Assembly (NCBI GenBank): GCA_947501275.1
Contig: CANMVD010000002.1
Coordinates: 620,001-684,000 of the forward strand
DNA from: an uncultured Tateyamaria sp.
GTDB lineage: Bacteria > Pseudomonadota > Alphaproteobacteria > Rhodobacterales > Rhodobacteraceae
Length of the DNA stretch: 64,000 nucleotides
Reading direction: 5' to 3'
Below, one piece after another: positions 2,066-8,597 of this stretch. Position numbers and translations under genes: made by a program. Numbering within the stretch: position 1 is the first letter of the stretch; each line of letters begins with the position of its first letter. The notes under the pieces were generated by a model that saw only the letters and a list, made by a program, of their open reading frames with translations, was not told the DNA's origin and searched no databases.

Positions 2066-3262
2066 ATGTCTGACACCATCCGCCAAAAGGCCGAAAGCGC
2101 ACTGGCGCAAGTCGAAGAAGTCACCGCCGTGGTGCTCGCCGAGCCAACGGAGGCCAACGCAATTGTGCCACTGGCCGAAGCTGATGCGCCCTTGGGCGCC
2201 GAAATCCGCGCCCGTATGGACGAGATCGACATGGAAGACACGAATTCCATCGTCTCTTTCGGCTCTGCCGCGCAGTCTGAGTTGCAGGAAATCAGCCAGG
2301 CCATGTTGCAAGACGTGCGCAACAAGGATCTGGGCCCCGCAGGCGACGGCTTGCGCGATATCGTGACCACGATCCGTGGCTTTTCCGTTTCCGAACTCGA
2401 CGTGCGGCGCGAACGGTCATGGTGGGAGAAACTGATCGGTCGGGCGGCGCCTTTTGCCAAGTTCACGGCCAAGTTCGAAAATGTGCAGGGCCAGATCGAC
2501 AGGATCACGGACAACCTGCTGGAACACGAGCACACGCTGCTCAAAGACATCAAGTCGCTCGATCTGCTGTATGAAAAGACGCTGCAGTTTTACGATGAAC
2601 TCGCCCTCTATATCTCGGCGGGTGAGGCCAAGCTGGCCGAACTGGATGGTACGCAAATTCCCGCCGCCGAAGCTGCGGTGCAGGCGGCCCCGGAAGGCGA
2701 GCAGGTGATGAAAGCGCAGGAGCTGCGTGATCTGCGCGCCGCGCGCGACGATCTGGAACGTCGGGTGCATGATCTTAAACTGACGCGTCAGGTGACCATG
2801 CAATCCCTGCCCTCGATCCGTCTGGTGCAGGAAAATGACAAGTCGCTGGTGACCAAGATCAACTCGACATTGGTCAACACTGTGCCGCTTTGGGAAACGC
2901 AACTGGCGCAGGCCGTCACGATCCAACGCAGCGCCGAAGCCGCTGCCGCAGTGCGCGATGCCAACGATCTGACCAACGAATTGCTGACCGCCAACGCCGA
3001 AAACCTGCGTGACGCCAACAAGATGATCCGCACCGAAATGGAGCGCGGTGTCTTTGACATCGAAGCGGTGAAAGAGGCCAACGCGGCCCTGATCGGGACC
3101 ATTCAGGATAGCCTGCAAATCGCGGATGAAGGCAAGGCCAAACGCGCCGCCGCCGAAGAGGACCTGAAGAAAATGGAAGCCGAATTGCGCGACACTCTGG
3201 CCGCTGCCAAGGCGCGCAAGGACGGTGTGGGCGACACGGCCGCCACATCCGTCACAGACTAA
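2066..3262 (+). CDS. telA: TelA-family toxic anion resistance protein
   Basis: This 398-residue protein is soluble and almost entirely helical, with long coiled-coil-like stretches, as in the TelA/KlaA family that protects against tellurite and related stresses. Typical segments are the central WWEKLIGRAAPFAKF block and the later LVTKINSTLVNTVPLWETQL block (about residues 270-290), which is strongly conserved in the family. The start has a clear AAGGGG site. It follows xpaC and precedes a DUF2927 lipoprotein by only 14 bases. The mechanism of TelA is unknown; association with membrane-linked XpaC/TerC is inferred from the shared locus. Confidence 0.9.
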   Translation: MSDTIRQKAESALAQVEEVTAVVLAEPTEANAIVPLAEADAPLGAEIRARMDEIDMEDTNSIVSFGSAAQSELQEISQAMLQDVRNKDLGPAGDGLRDIVTTIRGFSVSELDVRRERSWWEKLIGRAAPFAKFTAKFENVQGQIDRITDNLLEHEHTLLKDIKSLDLLYEKTLQFYDELALYISAGEAKLAELDGTQIPAAEAAVQAAPEGEQVMKAQELRDLRAARDDLERRVHDLKLTRQVTMQSLPSIRLVQENDKSLVTKINSTLVNTVPLWETQLAQAVTIQRSAEAAAAVRDANDLTNELLTANAENLRDANKMIRTEMERGVFDIEAVKEANAALIGTIQDSLQIADEGKAKRAAAEEDLKKMEAELRDTLAAAKARKDGVGDTAATSVTD

Positions 3263-3276
3263 GGAAAGGCAGGCGC

Positions 3277-4248
3277 GTGGCACGCAGCATGGCGCAAAGA
3301 CTGAGGGCATGGGGGGGCGGCATTGCCGCACTTGCCTGTCTGGCTGCTTGCGAAATGCCGGGAACGGTTGATCCCGTGTTGACACCGCGCGCACGCCCCG
3401 AGACGGTACCCGCTCCCGCGCCACCTCCCGTTGTGCGCGCCACCTCAACCGAAAGCGCCGCCCTACGCAGTTATCTGGGGGCGGTGCAATCCAGCCAACT
3501 GACCCAAGGGTTGCTGCGGCGCGATGGTGGGGGACCGGACACCCCTTTTACAGCGTCGATGCTGGCGCGGAATTTCGAGCAGATCGCGTTCTTCAACGAA
3601 TATGCAACGTCGGGTCTGCGGGGCGGTGGTGCACAACCGCTACGACGCTGGACTGGACCCGTTCGGATGGGCGTCGCCTTTGGGCCGTCTGTCCCGCCTA
3701 GCCAACGGGCGCGCGACATGGATGATGTGCGGGCCTATGCACGTCGGCTGTCACGGGCCACTGGGCACCCGATCTCGGTAGCGCCCAACCCCAACTTTCT
3801 GGTGCTTTTTGCCGGCGAGGATGATCGCGCCGATCTGGTCAACTCCATGGGTCCACGCCTGCCCGGAGTGACGCAACAGAACCTGCGGGCTATCCGCGAT
3901 CTGGATGACAACACTTACTGTGCGGTAGCCGCCTATGAAACCGGCCCTACCCCCGCAGTCTACACCGCTGCAGTCGCTATCATCCGGGCCGAAAACCCCG
4001 ATCTGCTGCGGTTGTCATGCATCCACGAAGAATTGGCCCAAGGGTTAGGGCTGGCCAATGACAGCCCCAATGCCCGGCCCAGCATCTTTAACGACGATGA
4101 CGAGTTTGCACTGCTGACAGATCACGACGAACACCTGTTGGGGATGCTGTACGACCCGCGCCTGACCCCCGGTGTCACGCGCGAAAGCGCCCGCGCAACC
4201 GTGCAGCAACTCGCGCGCGAACGCATCGACGGGCCCGAGGCCAGCTGA
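3277..4248 (+). CDS. DUF2927 domain lipoprotein
   Basis: The 323-residue product has a signal sequence ending in the lipobox LAAC (acylated Cys25), then a proline-rich linker (residues 35-55) and a DUF2927 domain. The domain carries CIHEELAQGLGLANDS followed by a conserved acidic stretch (IFNDDDEFALLTDHDE); the HEE-type motif recalls metallopeptidases, though activity is unproven. The GTG start at 3277 has AAGG upstream; an ATG at 3289 is the alternative. It is the penultimate gene of the TerC-XpaC-TelA-SPFH group and probably works at the outer face of a membrane. Confidence 0.85.
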   Translation: MARSMAQRLRAWGGGIAALACLAACEMPGTVDPVLTPRARPETVPAPAPPPVVRATSTESAALRSYLGAVQSSQLTQGLLRRDGGGPDTPFTASMLARNFEQIAFFNEYATSGLRGGGAQPLRRWTGPVRMGVAFGPSVPPSQRARDMDDVRAYARRLSRATGHPISVAPNPNFLVLFAGEDDRADLVNSMGPRLPGVTQQNLRAIRDLDDNTYCAVAAYETGPTPAVYTAAVAIIRAENPDLLRLSCIHEELAQGLGLANDSPNARPSIFNDDDEFALLTDHDEHLLGMLYDPRLTPGVTRESARATVQQLARERIDGPEAS

Positions 4249-4347
4249 TGGACGCACAGCGGCGCGCTGACGCGCCCCTTCCCCTCACATCCCTGCACAT
4301 GCCACACTCATATCCAACACGGATCATCCAAAAACGAGGACCACACC

Positions 4348-5445
4348 ATGGGCATTTTTGACTTCCTCTCAGGCGAATTCATCGACGTCATCCACTGGGT
4401 CGATGACAGCCGCGACACGATGGTCTGGCGCTTCGAACGCGAAGGCCACGAGATCAAATACGGCGCCAAGTTGACGGTACGGGAAGGCCAGGCAGCCGTG
4501 TTCGTGCACGAAGGACAATTGGCAGACGTGTTCACGCCCGGGCTCTACATGCTCGAAACCAACAACATGCCGATCATGACGACGTTGCAGCACTGGGATC
4601 ACGGCTTCAAAAGCCCGTTCAAATCCGAAGTCTACTTTGTCAACACAACCCGCTTCAGCGATCTGAAATGGGGCACCAAGAACCCGATCATCTGCCGTGA
4701 CCCCGAATTTGGCCCCGTCCGGTTGCGCGCCTTCGGGACCTATTCGGTCAAGGTCGCGGATCCGGCCAGGTTCCTTGTGGAAATTGTCGGCACCGATGGC
4801 GAATTCACCATGGACGAGATCAGTTTCCAGATCCGCAACATCATTGTGCAGGAAATGTCACGCAGCCTTGCCAAATCCGGGATACCGGTGCTCGATATGG
4901 CGGCCAACACCCGCGAGTTGGGGCAGATCGTGGCCAAGGAGATCAGCGCGCAAATCGCTGAATACGGGCTGACGCTGCCCGAGCTTTATATCGAAAACAT
5001 CTCCTTGCCCCCGGCCGTCGAAGAAGTGATGGACAAACGCTCGTCAATGGGGGTGATCGGAAATCTCAACGAATACATGCAGTTCCAAGCGGCCGAAGCG
5101 ATTGGGCGCGGTGGAGCTGCAGGGGCTGCAATGGAAACCGGTATGGGTGCAGGCTTGGGTATGCAGATGGGGGCCGCCATGGCCAATCCATGGGCGCAAC
5201 AGCAGCCCGCTGCGGCCGCTCCACCGCCTCCCCCTGTTGAGCATGTCTGGCACGTGGCCGAAAACGGACAAACCACCGGACCATTCTCAAAGGCGCAGCT
5301 GGGACGCATGGCCGCCAGCGGCGATCTCAGCCGCGAAAGCTATGTCTGGACGGCTGGGCAAGACGGCTGGATGAAGGCAGAAGATGTGACGGAACTGGCA
5401 CAACTGTTCACCATCATGCCACCGCCGCCACCGCCCGGGGTCTGA
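4348..5445 (+). CDS. SPFH-domain protein with C-terminal GYF_2 domain
   Basis: The protein (365 aa) has an SPFH/band-7-like core (about residues 25-240) of the kind annotated as virion-core-protein-like or YdjI-like. An Ala/Gly/Pro-rich linker follows (about 250-295), then a GYF_2-type module (about 297-352) containing TTGPFSKAQLGRMAASG and a conserved Trp pattern (VWTAG..GWMKAEDV). A polyproline tail PPPPPPGV closes it. No transmembrane segment is obvious. SPFH proteins scaffold membrane microdomains, and GYF modules bind proline-rich peptides, so the tail or the proline-rich DUF2927 linker could be ligands (inference). The start has CGAGGA upstream. The gene ends before a strong terminator. 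Confidence 0.88.
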   Translation: MGIFDFLSGEFIDVIHWVDDSRDTMVWRFEREGHEIKYGAKLTVREGQAAVFVHEGQLADVFTPGLYMLETNNMPIMTTLQHWDHGFKSPFKSEVYFVNTTRFSDLKWGTKNPIICRDPEFGPVRLRAFGTYSVKVADPARFLVEIVGTDGEFTMDEISFQIRNIIVQEMSRSLAKSGIPVLDMAANTRELGQIVAKEISAQIAEYGLTLPELYIENISLPPAVEEVMDKRSSMGVIGNLNEYMQFQAAEAIGRGGAAGAAMETGMGAGLGMQMGAAMANPWAQQQPAAAAPPPPPVEHVWHVAENGQTTGPFSKAQLGRMAASGDLSRESYVWTAGQDGWMKAEDVTELAQLFTIMPPPPPPGV

Positions 5446-5468: not shown

Positions 5469-5500
5469 AAAGCCGCGCAGAAGGAACTCTGCGCGGCTTT
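5469..5500. terminator. Bidirectional intrinsic terminator
   Basis: A perfect 13-bp stem (AAAGCCGCGCAGA and its complement) encloses a six-base loop. It stands between the convergent SPFH gene and the repeat-protein gene. On the minus strand the stem is followed by a run of T (TTTTTTGTGG in total), and on the plus strand by TTTCTCTTT, so it can serve both. Confidence 0.9.
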
Positions 5501-5521: not shown

Positions 5522-6577
5522 TTAACGACGAATGACTGTAGACATCCCAAGAACCTGGGACAGAGAAAAACCCTTGCTCGGTGTATGGGATTTCGCCTTG
5601 TCACTGTCCTTGATAACCAAAGGCAGGATCATGTCCGCCATCCGCGCGTGACGGGGGAAGGCAAAGTTATCCTTGGGTTGCCGTTTGGAAATCAACGGAA
5701 TGGGGAAGTTCGCCATCCGACCGTGCCGGGGCAAGGCGTGCTTGTCCTTGGGTACGCGGCGCGACAGCAGCGGAATGGGGAAGTTCGCCATGCGCGTGCC
5801 ATGCGGCATCAGTGTGTTTTCGGTGCTGCGCTTACCATTGATCAGATGCGGGAAAGGCCAATTGGCCATCCGGGCATGACGTGGGAACGCAAAGCGGTCC
5901 TTGGGCACCCGGCGCGAGATCAGCGGCAGCGGGAAGTTCGCCATACGCGCGTGGCGCGGGAATGCAAACCTGTCCTTCGGAACACGTTTGGAGATCAACG
6001 GGATGGGGAAATTCGCCATCCGGCCGTGGCGCGGAATGGCAAAATTGTCCTTCGGTACACGCTTGCTCAGCAACGGGATCGGCCAATTTGCCATATGCGC
6101 GCCCGGCTCAAACAGCATCTCGCGGAATGGTTTGCGACGGCTGATCAGCGGGATCGGCCAATCGGCCATGTGGTAGTCGTTGGAATAGCGATCCGGCCCG
6201 CGGGTCATGATGCGCGGATGGTCCTGCAACACGCTCAGTGTCGGCTTGAAGGTCTCGGGAACAGTGACTTCCTCGACAAGGTTGACCATATCGGCCGCCC
6301 CCATCTCTGCCATCACATCGCGGGTGGTCTGCGCTACGCTGAGCGGCTTGTGACCTGCGCGGACCAGCAGAACCGCGCCGTTCTTTTTCATGTGCTTTTG
6401 GTAGGCGGTGGCCGTTTCAGGCGCGACCTGTTGCGCGGTCAGCGCGTCCACCAGACCGTCGGCCTGCTCATAAATATCGACGATGCGCGATGAAAAGCGG
6501 CGGCGCTGAACAAGCTCCCGCCGCACAAGACGCGCCTGCGCTGCGCTTTCGAAATACCGTGTAATGACCTGTGTCAT
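5522..6577 (-). CDS. Unrecognised protein with eight 25-residue MANxPIPL repeats
   Basis: The 351-residue product has an N-terminal region (about 1-110) that vaguely resembles stress-protein YflT-like alpha/beta domains (RYFESAAQARLVRREL...). From residue 137 to about 336 it has eight near-tandem repeats of 25 residues (one of 26). Each begins MA(N/D)(W/F)PIPL, continues (I/L)S(K/R)RVPKD and ends in a basic PRH(G/A)R. Repeats five and eight are the most divergent. The ATG at 6577 is chosen because TGGAGG lies just upstream; a longer frame reaching 6658 lacks one. There is no signal peptide or membrane span. The array is strongly basic and proline-rich. No known family is recognised and no function is assigned. 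Confidence 0.85.
   Translation of the reverse strand: MTQVITRYFESAAQARLVRRELVQRRRFSSRIVDIYEQADGLVDALTAQQVAPETATAYQKHMKKNGAVLLVRAGHKPLSVAQTTRDVMAEMGAADMVNLVEEVTVPETFKPTLSVLQDHPRIMTRGPDRYSNDYHMADWPIPLISRRKPFREMLFEPGAHMANWPIPLLSKRVPKDNFAIPRHGRMANFPIPLISKRVPKDRFAFPRHARMANFPLPLISRRVPKDRFAFPRHARMANWPFPHLINGKRSTENTLMPHGTRMANFPIPLLSRRVPKDKHALPRHGRMANFPIPLISKRQPKDNFAFPRHARMADMILPLVIKDSDKAKSHTPSKGFSLSQVLGMSTVIRR
5572..6169 (-). repeat. Eight 75-bp coding repeats
   Basis: This is the DNA encoding the eight 25-residue units. On the plus strand the marker GGGAAGTTCGCCAT (or a close variant) recurs at about 5700, 5780, 5930 and 6005. Units have diverged at synonymous and some coding positions, so they are old enough to be under selection and not a fresh expansion. 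Confidence 0.8.
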
Positions 6578-6683
6578 GGTGCCTCCACCAGATTGGTTAG
6601 TCGACTCGCCTGAACTCAGACGAAGGGCTGCGCGCACCGCATATGTTTGTTCGAACACGGAAAAACAGGATTTCCGCCTTCGA

Positions 6684-6709: not shown

Positions 6710-6732
6710 TGAGCTGCAATTTGTCAATTTTT

Positions 6733-6754
6733 TATTACATTTTCAAGTGTAATA
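6733..6754. promoter_or_regulatory. Inverted repeat TATTACA-N8-TGTAATA
   Basis: A perfect 7-bp inverted repeat with an 8-base spacer lies in the most AT-rich part of the divergent promoter region. It has the symmetry of a dimeric repressor or activator site. It could control either flanking gene. Confidence 0.45.
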
Positions 6755-6852
6755 GATGTCTGACACCTTGCGGCATGGCGGATCATGGACACGCCTTGAT
6801 GTGCAAAATGGTGCACGGCGCTGAAATGGCAAGGTTGAGTGCTTGTGATTCC

Positions 6853-6994: not shown

Positions 6995-7543
6995 ATGTCC
7001 CTGCGCAGCCGACTTCCCCCGCGTCGTACAGCCCTCAAGTGGCTGCACTGGACAATGGTGCCCTTGTTCATCTGGTTCCTGCTGGTCCAGCCCAAAGATG
7101 TCACCCCTTTTGGACCACGCGCATTCCAAGCGCATTCCATGCTCGCCCTGGTCTTTGTGTCCCTGTCATTGCTGTGGTTTGCGGATCTGATGCGGCGTGG
7201 GCTGGCCAGCCGTCCGGGGCCCAAGCTGACGGGGCGCCTGCGCACCGTGCACCGCGCCATGCACTTGACGCTGATCTGGGGGCTGTTCTTTGTGGCCTTC
7301 ACGGGGTTTCTGTTGGGTCTGACATCGGCCACGCTGCTCAAGGCGGGTGGTGTGCTGCCCATTGCGCCGCCCTTGGGTCTGCACGCGGCCAATGAGATCG
7401 TTGGCATTGTGCATATCATCGAATTCTATGCGCTTGGCGCGGTGGTGGCGGGACACGCCGGATTTCACATCTGGCGGCACTATCGCCTGCGTGACAACGC
7501 CTTGCGGATCATGGTGCCACAGCGTTTTCACCGATTTCTATAG
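6995..7543 (+). CDS. Cytochrome b561-like membrane protein, copy 1
   Basis: This 182-residue protein has four predicted membrane helices and the histidine pattern of bacterial cytochrome b561 / Ni-hydrogenase b-type cytochromes. The candidate haem ligands are His18 in WLHW, His47, His86/90 in VHRAMH, and the late cluster HAGFHIWRH (about residues 154-161). A loop LASRPGPKL is shared with the next two genes. It is the first of three paralogues in a row. A role as membrane electron carrier to or from quinone is inferred. The ribosome-binding site is weak. Confidence 0.8.
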   Translation: MSLRSRLPPRRTALKWLHWTMVPLFIWFLLVQPKDVTPFGPRAFQAHSMLALVFVSLSLLWFADLMRRGLASRPGPKLTGRLRTVHRAMHLTLIWGLFFVAFTGFLLGLTSATLLKAGGVLPIAPPLGLHAANEIVGIVHIIEFYALGAVVAGHAGFHIWRHYRLRDNALRIMVPQRFHRFL

Positions 7544-7619
7544 GCCTTAGGCCAAAGGTTTATGGCACCGCGCCGCCTCACCCCATAGCTCTGCGCAACC
7601 ACAGCAGAACGGAGGGGTC

Positions 7620-8147
7620 ATGACCCATCGAACACGTCTTAAATGGCTGCATTGGCTGAGCTTTTTCATCATTCTTTGGTTCTGGACGGTCGAGCCCGAG
7701 AACGTGGAGCGCATGGGGGGCGCGGCACTTGGGGTGCACGCGGGCATGGGCGTGGTGCTGGCTGTGCTGAGCGCGATGTGGATGGGGATGTATCTGCGCC
7801 GTGGCCTTGCCAGTCGGCCCGGTCCCAAGTTGCCGGGATGGGCACGGTGGGTGCACCCGTGGATGCACAAGGGCCTGATATGGGGCCTGCCCACCATGGT
7901 GCTCAGCGGTGGGCTGGCCGGTTTTGCAGCACCTTATGCAATCAAACTGTTCGGGGTCGTCCCGTTCTTTCCCGGTGTCGGCCATGACCGCCTACACGGC
8001 GCGCTGCAAGATCTGCACGAACTCTGTTTCGACGCCATGTTGATCGCGCTTTTTGCACATGTAGGCTTTCACCTCTGGCGGCATTACGTGGTAAAGGATA
8101 ACGCATTACGGATCATGGCACCAAAACGGGTGCACAAGTATCTCTGA
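7620..8147 (+). CDS. Cytochrome b561-like membrane protein, copy 2
   Basis: The protein (175 aa) is a clear paralogue of the preceding gene, with the same WLHW start, LASRPGPKL loop, HVGFHLWRH motif and NALRIMAPKR C terminus. Candidate haem ligands are His11, His40, His79/83 and His147/151. An excellent GGAGGGG site precedes the ATG. The gene is 76 bases after copy 1 and 15 before copy 3, so all three are probably one operon. Its redox partners are unknown. Confidence 0.82.
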   Translation: MTHRTRLKWLHWLSFFIILWFWTVEPENVERMGGAALGVHAGMGVVLAVLSAMWMGMYLRRGLASRPGPKLPGWARWVHPWMHKGLIWGLPTMVLSGGLAGFAAPYAIKLFGVVPFFPGVGHDRLHGALQDLHELCFDAMLIALFAHVGFHLWRHYVVKDNALRIMAPKRVHKYL

Positions 8148-8162
8148 GGGAGACCGGCACAT

Positions 8163-8597
8163 ATGCACTGGCCCACGCTGCGCCGCAAAGCCACAATCGC
8201 TCTGCATTGGGCGGTTCTGGTGCTTTTGGTGTTACTGGTTGCGGGCGGGCCGGTGCCTCTGCTGGGGTGGGCCTTTGGGCTATGTGGCCTCGGCATGGGC
8301 GGTCTCGCGCTGATGTTCGGATTGCTGAACGGCCCCGGCCCGAAACTCAGCGGAACACTGCGGCATGCACACCCATGGCTCAGCCGCGGGATGTACATCG
8401 CACTGGCCTGGGTCAGCGCAAACACGCTGTGGTCATTGCTGGGTGGCGACGTCTATGGGCCACCTCTGGCATCGCTTTACTTTTACCTCATGGCTGGTGT
8501 TGCGCTGCACGCCATCTCTCACCTCTGGCGGCACACCGCATTGATGGACGGTGCCTTGCGCCGCATCACACCCGCCTCATTGCACGGAATGTTATGA
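8163..8597 (+). CDS. Cytochrome b561-like membrane protein, shortened copy 3
   Basis: At 144 residues this is the shortest of the three paralogues. It keeps ALHW (His15), the GPGPKLSG loop, HAHPW and the ISHLWRH motif (about 118-124), and ends ALRRITPASLHGML like its neighbours. The position matching His40 of copy 2 (GVHAGMG) is here GLCGLGMG, so one likely haem ligand is gone, and the periplasmic loop before helix four is shorter. It may bind fewer haems or act as a partner subunit. Its stop overlaps the next start (ATGA). Confidence 0.72.
   Translation: MHWPTLRRKATIALHWAVLVLLVLLVAGGPVPLLGWAFGLCGLGMGGLALMFGLLNGPGPKLSGTLRHAHPWLSRGMYIALAWVSANTLWSLLGGDVYGPPLASLYFYLMAGVALHAISHLWRHTALMDGALRRITPASLHGML

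Follow-up and report, generated by a model that had tools for sequence, protein, structure and literature searches.

PucD and PucE of Rhodobacter capsulatus include a 14-kDa LH2 gamma. The expression of pucDE and the pucBACDE cluster are treated in the excerpted texts of two reports (PMC4634722, PMC9231093), and by their place in the puc cluster, where they come after pucC, pucD and pucE can be likened to the gene family described here. The LH2-gamma of Rhodopseudomonas palustris (RPA1495; PDB 7ZCU, 7ZDI, 7ZE3, 7ZE8) is a protein of 97 residues that is made up of six 16-residue units. As far as the excerpted text of PMC9618040 goes, this subunit encloses six of the nine protomers near the cytoplasmic side in an extended form that is neither helix nor sheet, binds six bacteriochlorophylls via serines, and was confined to Rhodopseudomonas by BLASTp.

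Here we describe a gene from a stretch of 64,000 nucleotides of an uncultured Tateyamaria sp. (assembly GCA_947501275.1, contig CANMVD010000002.1, positions 620,001 to 684,000), the whole of which is called the window in the following. We consider it likely that this gene encodes an LH2-associated ribbon of the gamma type, that is, an accessory subunit of the peripheral antenna LH2. Like R. palustris gamma, the window family is linked to LH2 and possesses tandem short repeats with a PLI-like core, and the lack of helix and sheet in the repeats, which is observed in R. palustris gamma, is predicted for the window protein. Some relatives encoded next to pucC have the 16-residue period of R. palustris gamma together with a GxPL[IL]-like core. 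In contrast, the window protein is 351 residues long and contains eight units of 25 to 26 residues, not six of about 16, and it begins with an N-terminal domain of a kind that is absent from R. palustris gamma. The conserved residue differs as well: it is a histidine in the window family, where no counterpart of one serine ligand per unit was found, whereas R. palustris gamma uses serine ligands. Membership as an R. palustris-type gamma is not claimed; the likeness to a gamma ribbon rests on linkage, on regulation and on the period in some of the relatives.

Gene, protein and repeat unit

The gene is an open reading frame with an ATG start that occupies positions 5522..6577 on the reverse strand, as do all of its parts given below, and codes for the 351-residue repeat protein. 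The start codon is backed by M1, T2 and the motif ITRYF, which are invariant across 17 aligned sequences including that of the window. A likely ribosome-binding site, GGAGG, can be read directly at 6582..6586 (reverse strand), and a terminator-like hairpin, likewise read directly, lies at 5472..5497 between the gene and the convergent gene at 4348-5445.

The region in front of the repeats, for which the initial annotation had given about 110 residues, consists of a domain of about 107 residues (residues 1-107, 6257..6577) and a linker (residues 108-136, 6170..6256) with pLDDT mostly below 50. The domain has an alpha/beta fold which according to VIA-align, applied to the matches of Foldseek, is the common alpha/beta plait; no function was drawn from it.

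The eight units start at residues 137, 162, 187, 212, 237, 263, 288 and 313. Units 1 (6095..6169), 2 (6020..6094), 3 (5945..6019), 4 (5870..5944), 6 (5717..5791) and 7 (5642..5716) comprise 25 residues each and carry a histidine at position 23 (His23), with the exception of unit 1, which in the window protein lacks it and ends in EPGAH. Unit 5 (5792..5869) has 26 residues and is of a special type, MANWPFPHLING, without His23 and with the ending MPHGTR. Unit 8 (5570..5641) is of a further special type, MADxILPLVI, with a tail that has diverged after the first ten residues, and it is followed by the C-terminal core (5525..5569), which reads FSLSQVLGMSTVIRR in the window protein. The ending PRH(G/A)R, attributed to all eight units by the initial annotation, is found in units 2, 3, 4, 6 and 7 and is missing in units 1, 5 and 8. 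The strict eight-fold repetition itself was confirmed, with 88 identities at lag 25 in residues 137-351 compared to a maximum of 31 in 2000 shuffles (lags 1-59). The same stretch is basic, as had been noted, with 41 Lys and Arg against 12 Asp and Glu.

Among the six units of like type (1-4, 6 and 7; 15 pairs) the protein identity amounts to 40-92%, while the third codon positions agree in 28-60%, so that the unit copies are old and have been held by selection on the protein. In the predicted monomer the repeat region reaches a pLDDT of about 30, and by hydropathy no segment of the window protein is hydrophobic enough for a membrane helix; taken together, this fits a ribbon that is shaped by its partner. 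A signal-like N terminus was found in the window protein neither by eye nor by hydropathy.

The initial view that the unit belongs to no characterised family still stands, as Pfam and NCBIfam returned no real match for the window protein and the repeats were not placed in any characterised domain; NCBIfam also gave no match for the set A2. A sequence search of the PDB with the window protein gave two chance-level rows, and in a plasmid collection there was no match at E 0.01. The YflT domain (Pfam PF11181, heat-induced stress protein) matched two out of 16 short relatives weakly (best E 0.0029) and the window protein not at all at E 10; three profile matches that we read are glycine-zipper proteins without such repeats. 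Among the literature matches listed there was no report on the repeat protein, this literature being limited by licence and absence therefore not proven.

A scan of genome contigs yielded 19 relatives of the window protein, the titles of which name Rhodobacteraceae, Paracoccaceae, Tateyamaria, Roseobacter, Marivita, Silicimonas and other Alphaproteobacteria. Each of the 24 different long forms of full length (the window protein, L002-L018 and L029-L034) has eight units, a count that excludes the duplicates L027 (= L006) and L028 (= L016) and leaves the partial or mixed forms L019, L020 and L035-L039 outside. In these long forms the special types 5 and 8 stand at fixed places, and unit 5, with 26 residues in the window protein, has 25 in the others. 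Three further distinct long forms were found. Eight units are present in L142 and, with one of them 24 residues long, in L143, whereas L144 has eight only if its unit 2, which does not start with MA, is counted. The gene at L143:1417-2619 additionally contains another copy of the C-terminal FSxSKxxG module.

Conservation was counted in the 140 units at positions 1-4, 6 and 7 that are exactly 25 residues long, with four of other length dropped. P14 is present in 140, L8 in 138, His23 in 137 and R12 in 136 units. M1 and A2 occur in all of them, a constancy that is partly built in because the unit starts were located by the pattern MA (or LMD); an MA start is missing only in unit 2 of L017. Ser10, within the hydrophobic core, occurs in 132 units and is absent from unit 5, and Ser18 occurs in 72. 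Unit 1 carries His23 in 20 of the 24 long forms, the window protein being among those without it. Many short forms likewise end in a C-terminal tail of this type, FSxSxxLGxPT, and the type of the C-terminal core recurs in the units of pucC-adjacent relatives.

Linkage to puc genes and the upstream operator

In 15 out of the 19 relatives the gene lies directly after two genes which we take, from their sequences, to encode PucA and PucC, and in six relatives pucB was found by an 80-aa ORF screen. PucC is also present in the genomes of three unlinked relatives (L002, L012, L018) and in that of L020, where the locus is cut by a contig end. In the window genome another contig holds pucB, pucA and pucC, arranged in this order and without an adjoining gamma gene, and a photosynthesis gene cluster is located on contig 1.

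Three queries, the A1 profile, Photo_RC and PucC, were run against one set of 295 Rhodobacteraceae genomes. PucC proper was assigned to 38 genomes at E <=1.1e-156 and to one interrupted copy (G126), with a cut-off of our own choice that was placed at a gap in the E-values (next level 2.3e-133) separating a paralogue. Counted in this way, 35 of the 39 PucC genomes carry the gene, and none of the 256 without PucC does (Fisher p 2.5e-41). It is equally absent from all 83 genomes that have PufL/M and lack PucC (Fisher p 1.8e-26), PufL/M being present in all 35 carriers. In 33 of the 35 carriers a copy directly follows PucC in the same orientation, at a distance of no more than 1.2 kb; the exceptions are the window genome and G022, where contigs end. 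Four PucC genomes (G051, G091, G111, G252) gave neither a whole-genome match to the gene nor an A2 or A3 type by pucC.

Within the genus of the window 12 out of 20 genomes have PucC proper, and these are exactly the 12 with the gene. The initial annotation had named a lack of the gene in close relatives that have the rest of the locus as an argument against its reading. To the letter the gene is lacking in eight of the 20 congeners, but this is explained by their being exactly those without PucC. The gene family is of the LH2 (puc) operon type, pucC-adjacent and limited to LH2 genomes among those sampled, the window copy itself not being adjacent. We regard an association of the protein with LH2 as very likely. 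In G126 (G126:C3:44660-46367; L039, L093) pucC and the gamma gene next to it are both interrupted, which gives the impression of a joint decay of the LH2 locus.

The regulated-looking promoter mentioned in the initial annotation turned out to contain a tandem operator of the PpsR/CrtJ type (TGT-N12-ACA, 8 bp, TGT-N12-ACA) at 6722..6765, approximately 145 bp upstream of the ATG. In the excerpted text of PMC10890935, TGT-N12-ACA is the PpsR motif of D. shibae, tested by reporter fusion, and the puc operon of this species is Dshi_2897-2900. Single motifs occur in the window at chance level (13 vs 12.7), and the tandem motif appeared in none of 100 shuffled controls. In the genome of 4.6 Mb the tandem with a spacer of 7-9 has four occurrences, one by bchC, one between crtI and crtA (three genes which we name from their sequences), one upstream of pucBA and one at the window gene, and a reversed-motif control gave none genome-wide. 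A like tandem (spacer 7-8) precedes 12 out of 14 related puc operons examined; the puc operons of L009 and L010 have no such motif pair. As to the other unlinked copies, one site was found within 400 bp in L012 and L038 and none within this distance in L002, L018 and L033.

By its operator motif the window gene would fit into the PpsR regulon, with PpsR as the putative binding protein. Since the operator is located between the window gene and a divergent cytochrome b561-like gene, it might serve either. The latter side holds three consecutive genes (6995-8597), presumably cytochrome b561-like by their translations, which point away from the operator and might share it.

A proposed ribbon at the LH2 ring and other readings

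If the protein is a gamma-type ribbon, its N-terminal domain would stay in the cytoplasm, the hydrophobic stretch MANFPIPLIS of each 25-residue unit could dip into the membrane interface, and the basic stretch KRKP...PRHAR could sit under the lipid head groups. With one hydrophobic and one basic stretch per unit, each unit would engage approximately one alpha/beta protomer. The suggestion of the initial annotation that the repeats form a binding surface is, in our judgement, probably right. His23 (units 2, 3, 4, 6 and 7, and unit 1 in most relatives) is a candidate ligand for an extra bacteriochlorophyll by analogy with the serine of R. palustris gamma, and PpsR may co-repress the window gene together with pucBAC. 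Contact with LH2, the ratio of one unit per protomer, the binding of pigment and that of PpsR are points which we infer. We hold it to be probable that the protein wraps around the LH2 ring; pigment ligation by His23 is a guess that we offer tentatively.

The PucA of the window genome aligns without gaps from residue 1 to four PDB alpha chains among the matches listed, each of which has nine copies per entry, so that the LH2 ring is probably a nonamer. It is an attractive idea that eight units and the C-terminal core provide nine contacts, matching this nonamer. Carried further, the protein could act as a ruler of ring length, in which the eight units and the LGxPT core close the nonameric LH2 and about five or six extra bacteriochlorophylls sit on the His23 units, and it could belong to an LH2-belt superfamily across the Alphaproteobacteria with R. 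palustris gamma as a stripped-down member. We consider this extension to be rather doubtful. The number of units varies beyond the long forms, with about 10-14 in 15-residue variants and about 1-3 in short forms, and the 15-residue variants with their additional units speak against a simple rule of units per ring.

A variant within the ribbon reading, whose odds overlap with those of the ribbon, is a structural belt without bacteriochlorophyll that wraps LH2 and sets the stability or spacing of the rings. In the window family nothing fixed corresponds to the serine ligand of R. palustris gamma (Ser18 in 72 of 140 units), His23 could contact lipid head groups instead, and unit 1 of the window protein does without His23. 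Yet this histidine, in 137 of 140 units, equals in constancy every polar residue of the unit apart from R12 (in 136), and a pigment-free belt appears possible to us, though on the doubtful side. The strict tie to PucC, and not to PufL/M alone, would also be expected of an LH2 assembly factor with an N-terminal domain that docks on PucC and repeats that hold alpha/beta pairs or bacteriochlorophyll while the ring is being built and then leave, and the four PucC genomes without a match would agree with a factor that is not needed for every LH2. Such a role is unlikely, as the fixed count of 25-residue units and the special unit 5 suit a stoichiometric ring partner better and several relatives match the period of the structural gamma subunit. 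That all 35 carriers have PufL/M, and that variants with 13-14 of the 15-residue units would fit a bigger ring, could be taken to indicate a subunit of RC-LH1 rather than of LH2; this is made very unlikely by the 83 genomes that have PufL/M and lack PucC, none of which contains the gene.

The initial annotation had connected the gene to a TerC/TelA stress block and had also thought of a repeated peptide precursor. A stress protein, a surface protein or a precursor of basic peptides is suggested by the basic repeats and by window neighbours which, going by their translations, we assume to be TelA-like, SPFH-like and cytochrome b561-like. Synteny is against the connection, with the gene following LH2 genes in 15 of the 19 relatives, and the flanks of the relatives that were examined (up to 6 kb on each side, shorter at contig ends) do not contain that neighbourhood. 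A role in the stress block was rejected because the ORFs that adjoin the window gene on either side did not cluster with any ORF in these flanks of the 19 relatives. The peptide precursor was rejected as well, on account of the lack of a signal-like N terminus and the fixed order of the units, eight in number and with units 5 and 8 in fixed places. The PpsR-type operator and the tracking of PucC argue in the same direction, and we regard this group of readings as extremely improbable. The window neighbours at 2066-5445 are, judged by translations only, a TelA-like gene, a small secreted or lipoprotein-like gene and an SPFH-like gene.

By structure, an extra LH2 ribbon has so far been seen in Rhodopseudomonas, according to the excerpted text of PMC9618040. 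If the window gene does encode a gamma-type ribbon, 35 of the 39 sampled LH2-bearing Rhodobacteraceae as well as members of several other alphaproteobacterial families would carry a belt subunit that is omitted from pigment counts and energy-transfer models. With the fixed design of eight units one could test directly if a flexible chain is able to match or set protein ring size. The short, 15-, 16- and 25-residue forms would represent a natural series for studies of antenna absorption.

Shorter and more distant relatives

Short forms of about 190-230 residues possess the same N-terminal domain and only about one to three units, and they are also found after pucC in Rhodobacteraceae. Other variants have units of 15 residues (VPGHKFMAKFPFGHI), of which complete ones contain approximately 10-14; examples are located at L036:1501-2435, L038:1501-2595 and L145:1501-2601. 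A mixed form, half of 15-residue and half of 25-residue units, is encoded at L019:4161-5165. Some genomes have a long gamma-type gene in addition to a short one, the two standing in tandem or the long one being unlinked, as observed at L029:604-2601 (G235) and in G185, G001 and G692.

Outside the Rhodobacteraceae, PucC was detected at E <1e-150 in 10 out of 385 class-level genomes, and nine of these ten possess a related gene beside pucC or within about 2.5 kb of it, divergent to pucC in G389 and 2.5 kb off in G358. In G421 no related gene was found within 1.5 kb of pucC. The fragmented genome G392 contains a repeat-type gene and only a partial PucC match in the range of the paralogue. The class-level profile search gave 27 matches, of which 10 are the own gene or of the repeat type, four (L098, L102, L103, L104) are proteins without such repeats and 13 are unread; the gene in G384 was missed by this search and found by reading beside pucC.

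In profile comparisons A1 and A3 are linked with a probability of 100, A3 and the outside set with 99 (E 5e-19), and A1 and the outside set with 95 (E 3e-8), and these links are carried by the N-terminal domain together with the sequence that follows it. With regard to the period, four out of eight outside proteins have lag 16 or 32 above all of 300 shuffles, one has lag 12 and three have nothing; for the eight taken as one pool, the strongest lags are 32 and 16. In six of the eight, the first core is 24-25 residues away from the second.

Profile comparison with R. palustris gamma gave weak scores (probability <=7.2). Out of 150 unit-permuted controls, 1 attained the observed score for the outside set, 3 for A1 and 9 for A3. 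Against PDB chains, R. palustris gamma included, A1 had no match at E 10, and A3 and A4 gave chance-level rows only. A search with gamma (91 residues) in 284 class-level genomes returned two matches at E<=0.01, namely the gene by pucC in G539 (E 0.006, 87 residues aligned with one 3-residue gap) and a frame with three stops; the window genome gave none. Among 4698 ORFs of the collected loci only the G539 gene matched, and no other outside gene nor any member of the window family did. We take the gamma search and the permuted controls to be suggestive, with homology to R. palustris gamma not proven.

A hint towards the origin of the N-terminal domain may come from the glycine-zipper proteins encoded at L102:1492-2076, L103:1501-2127 and L104:997-1614, the N terminus of which matches the short-form profile.
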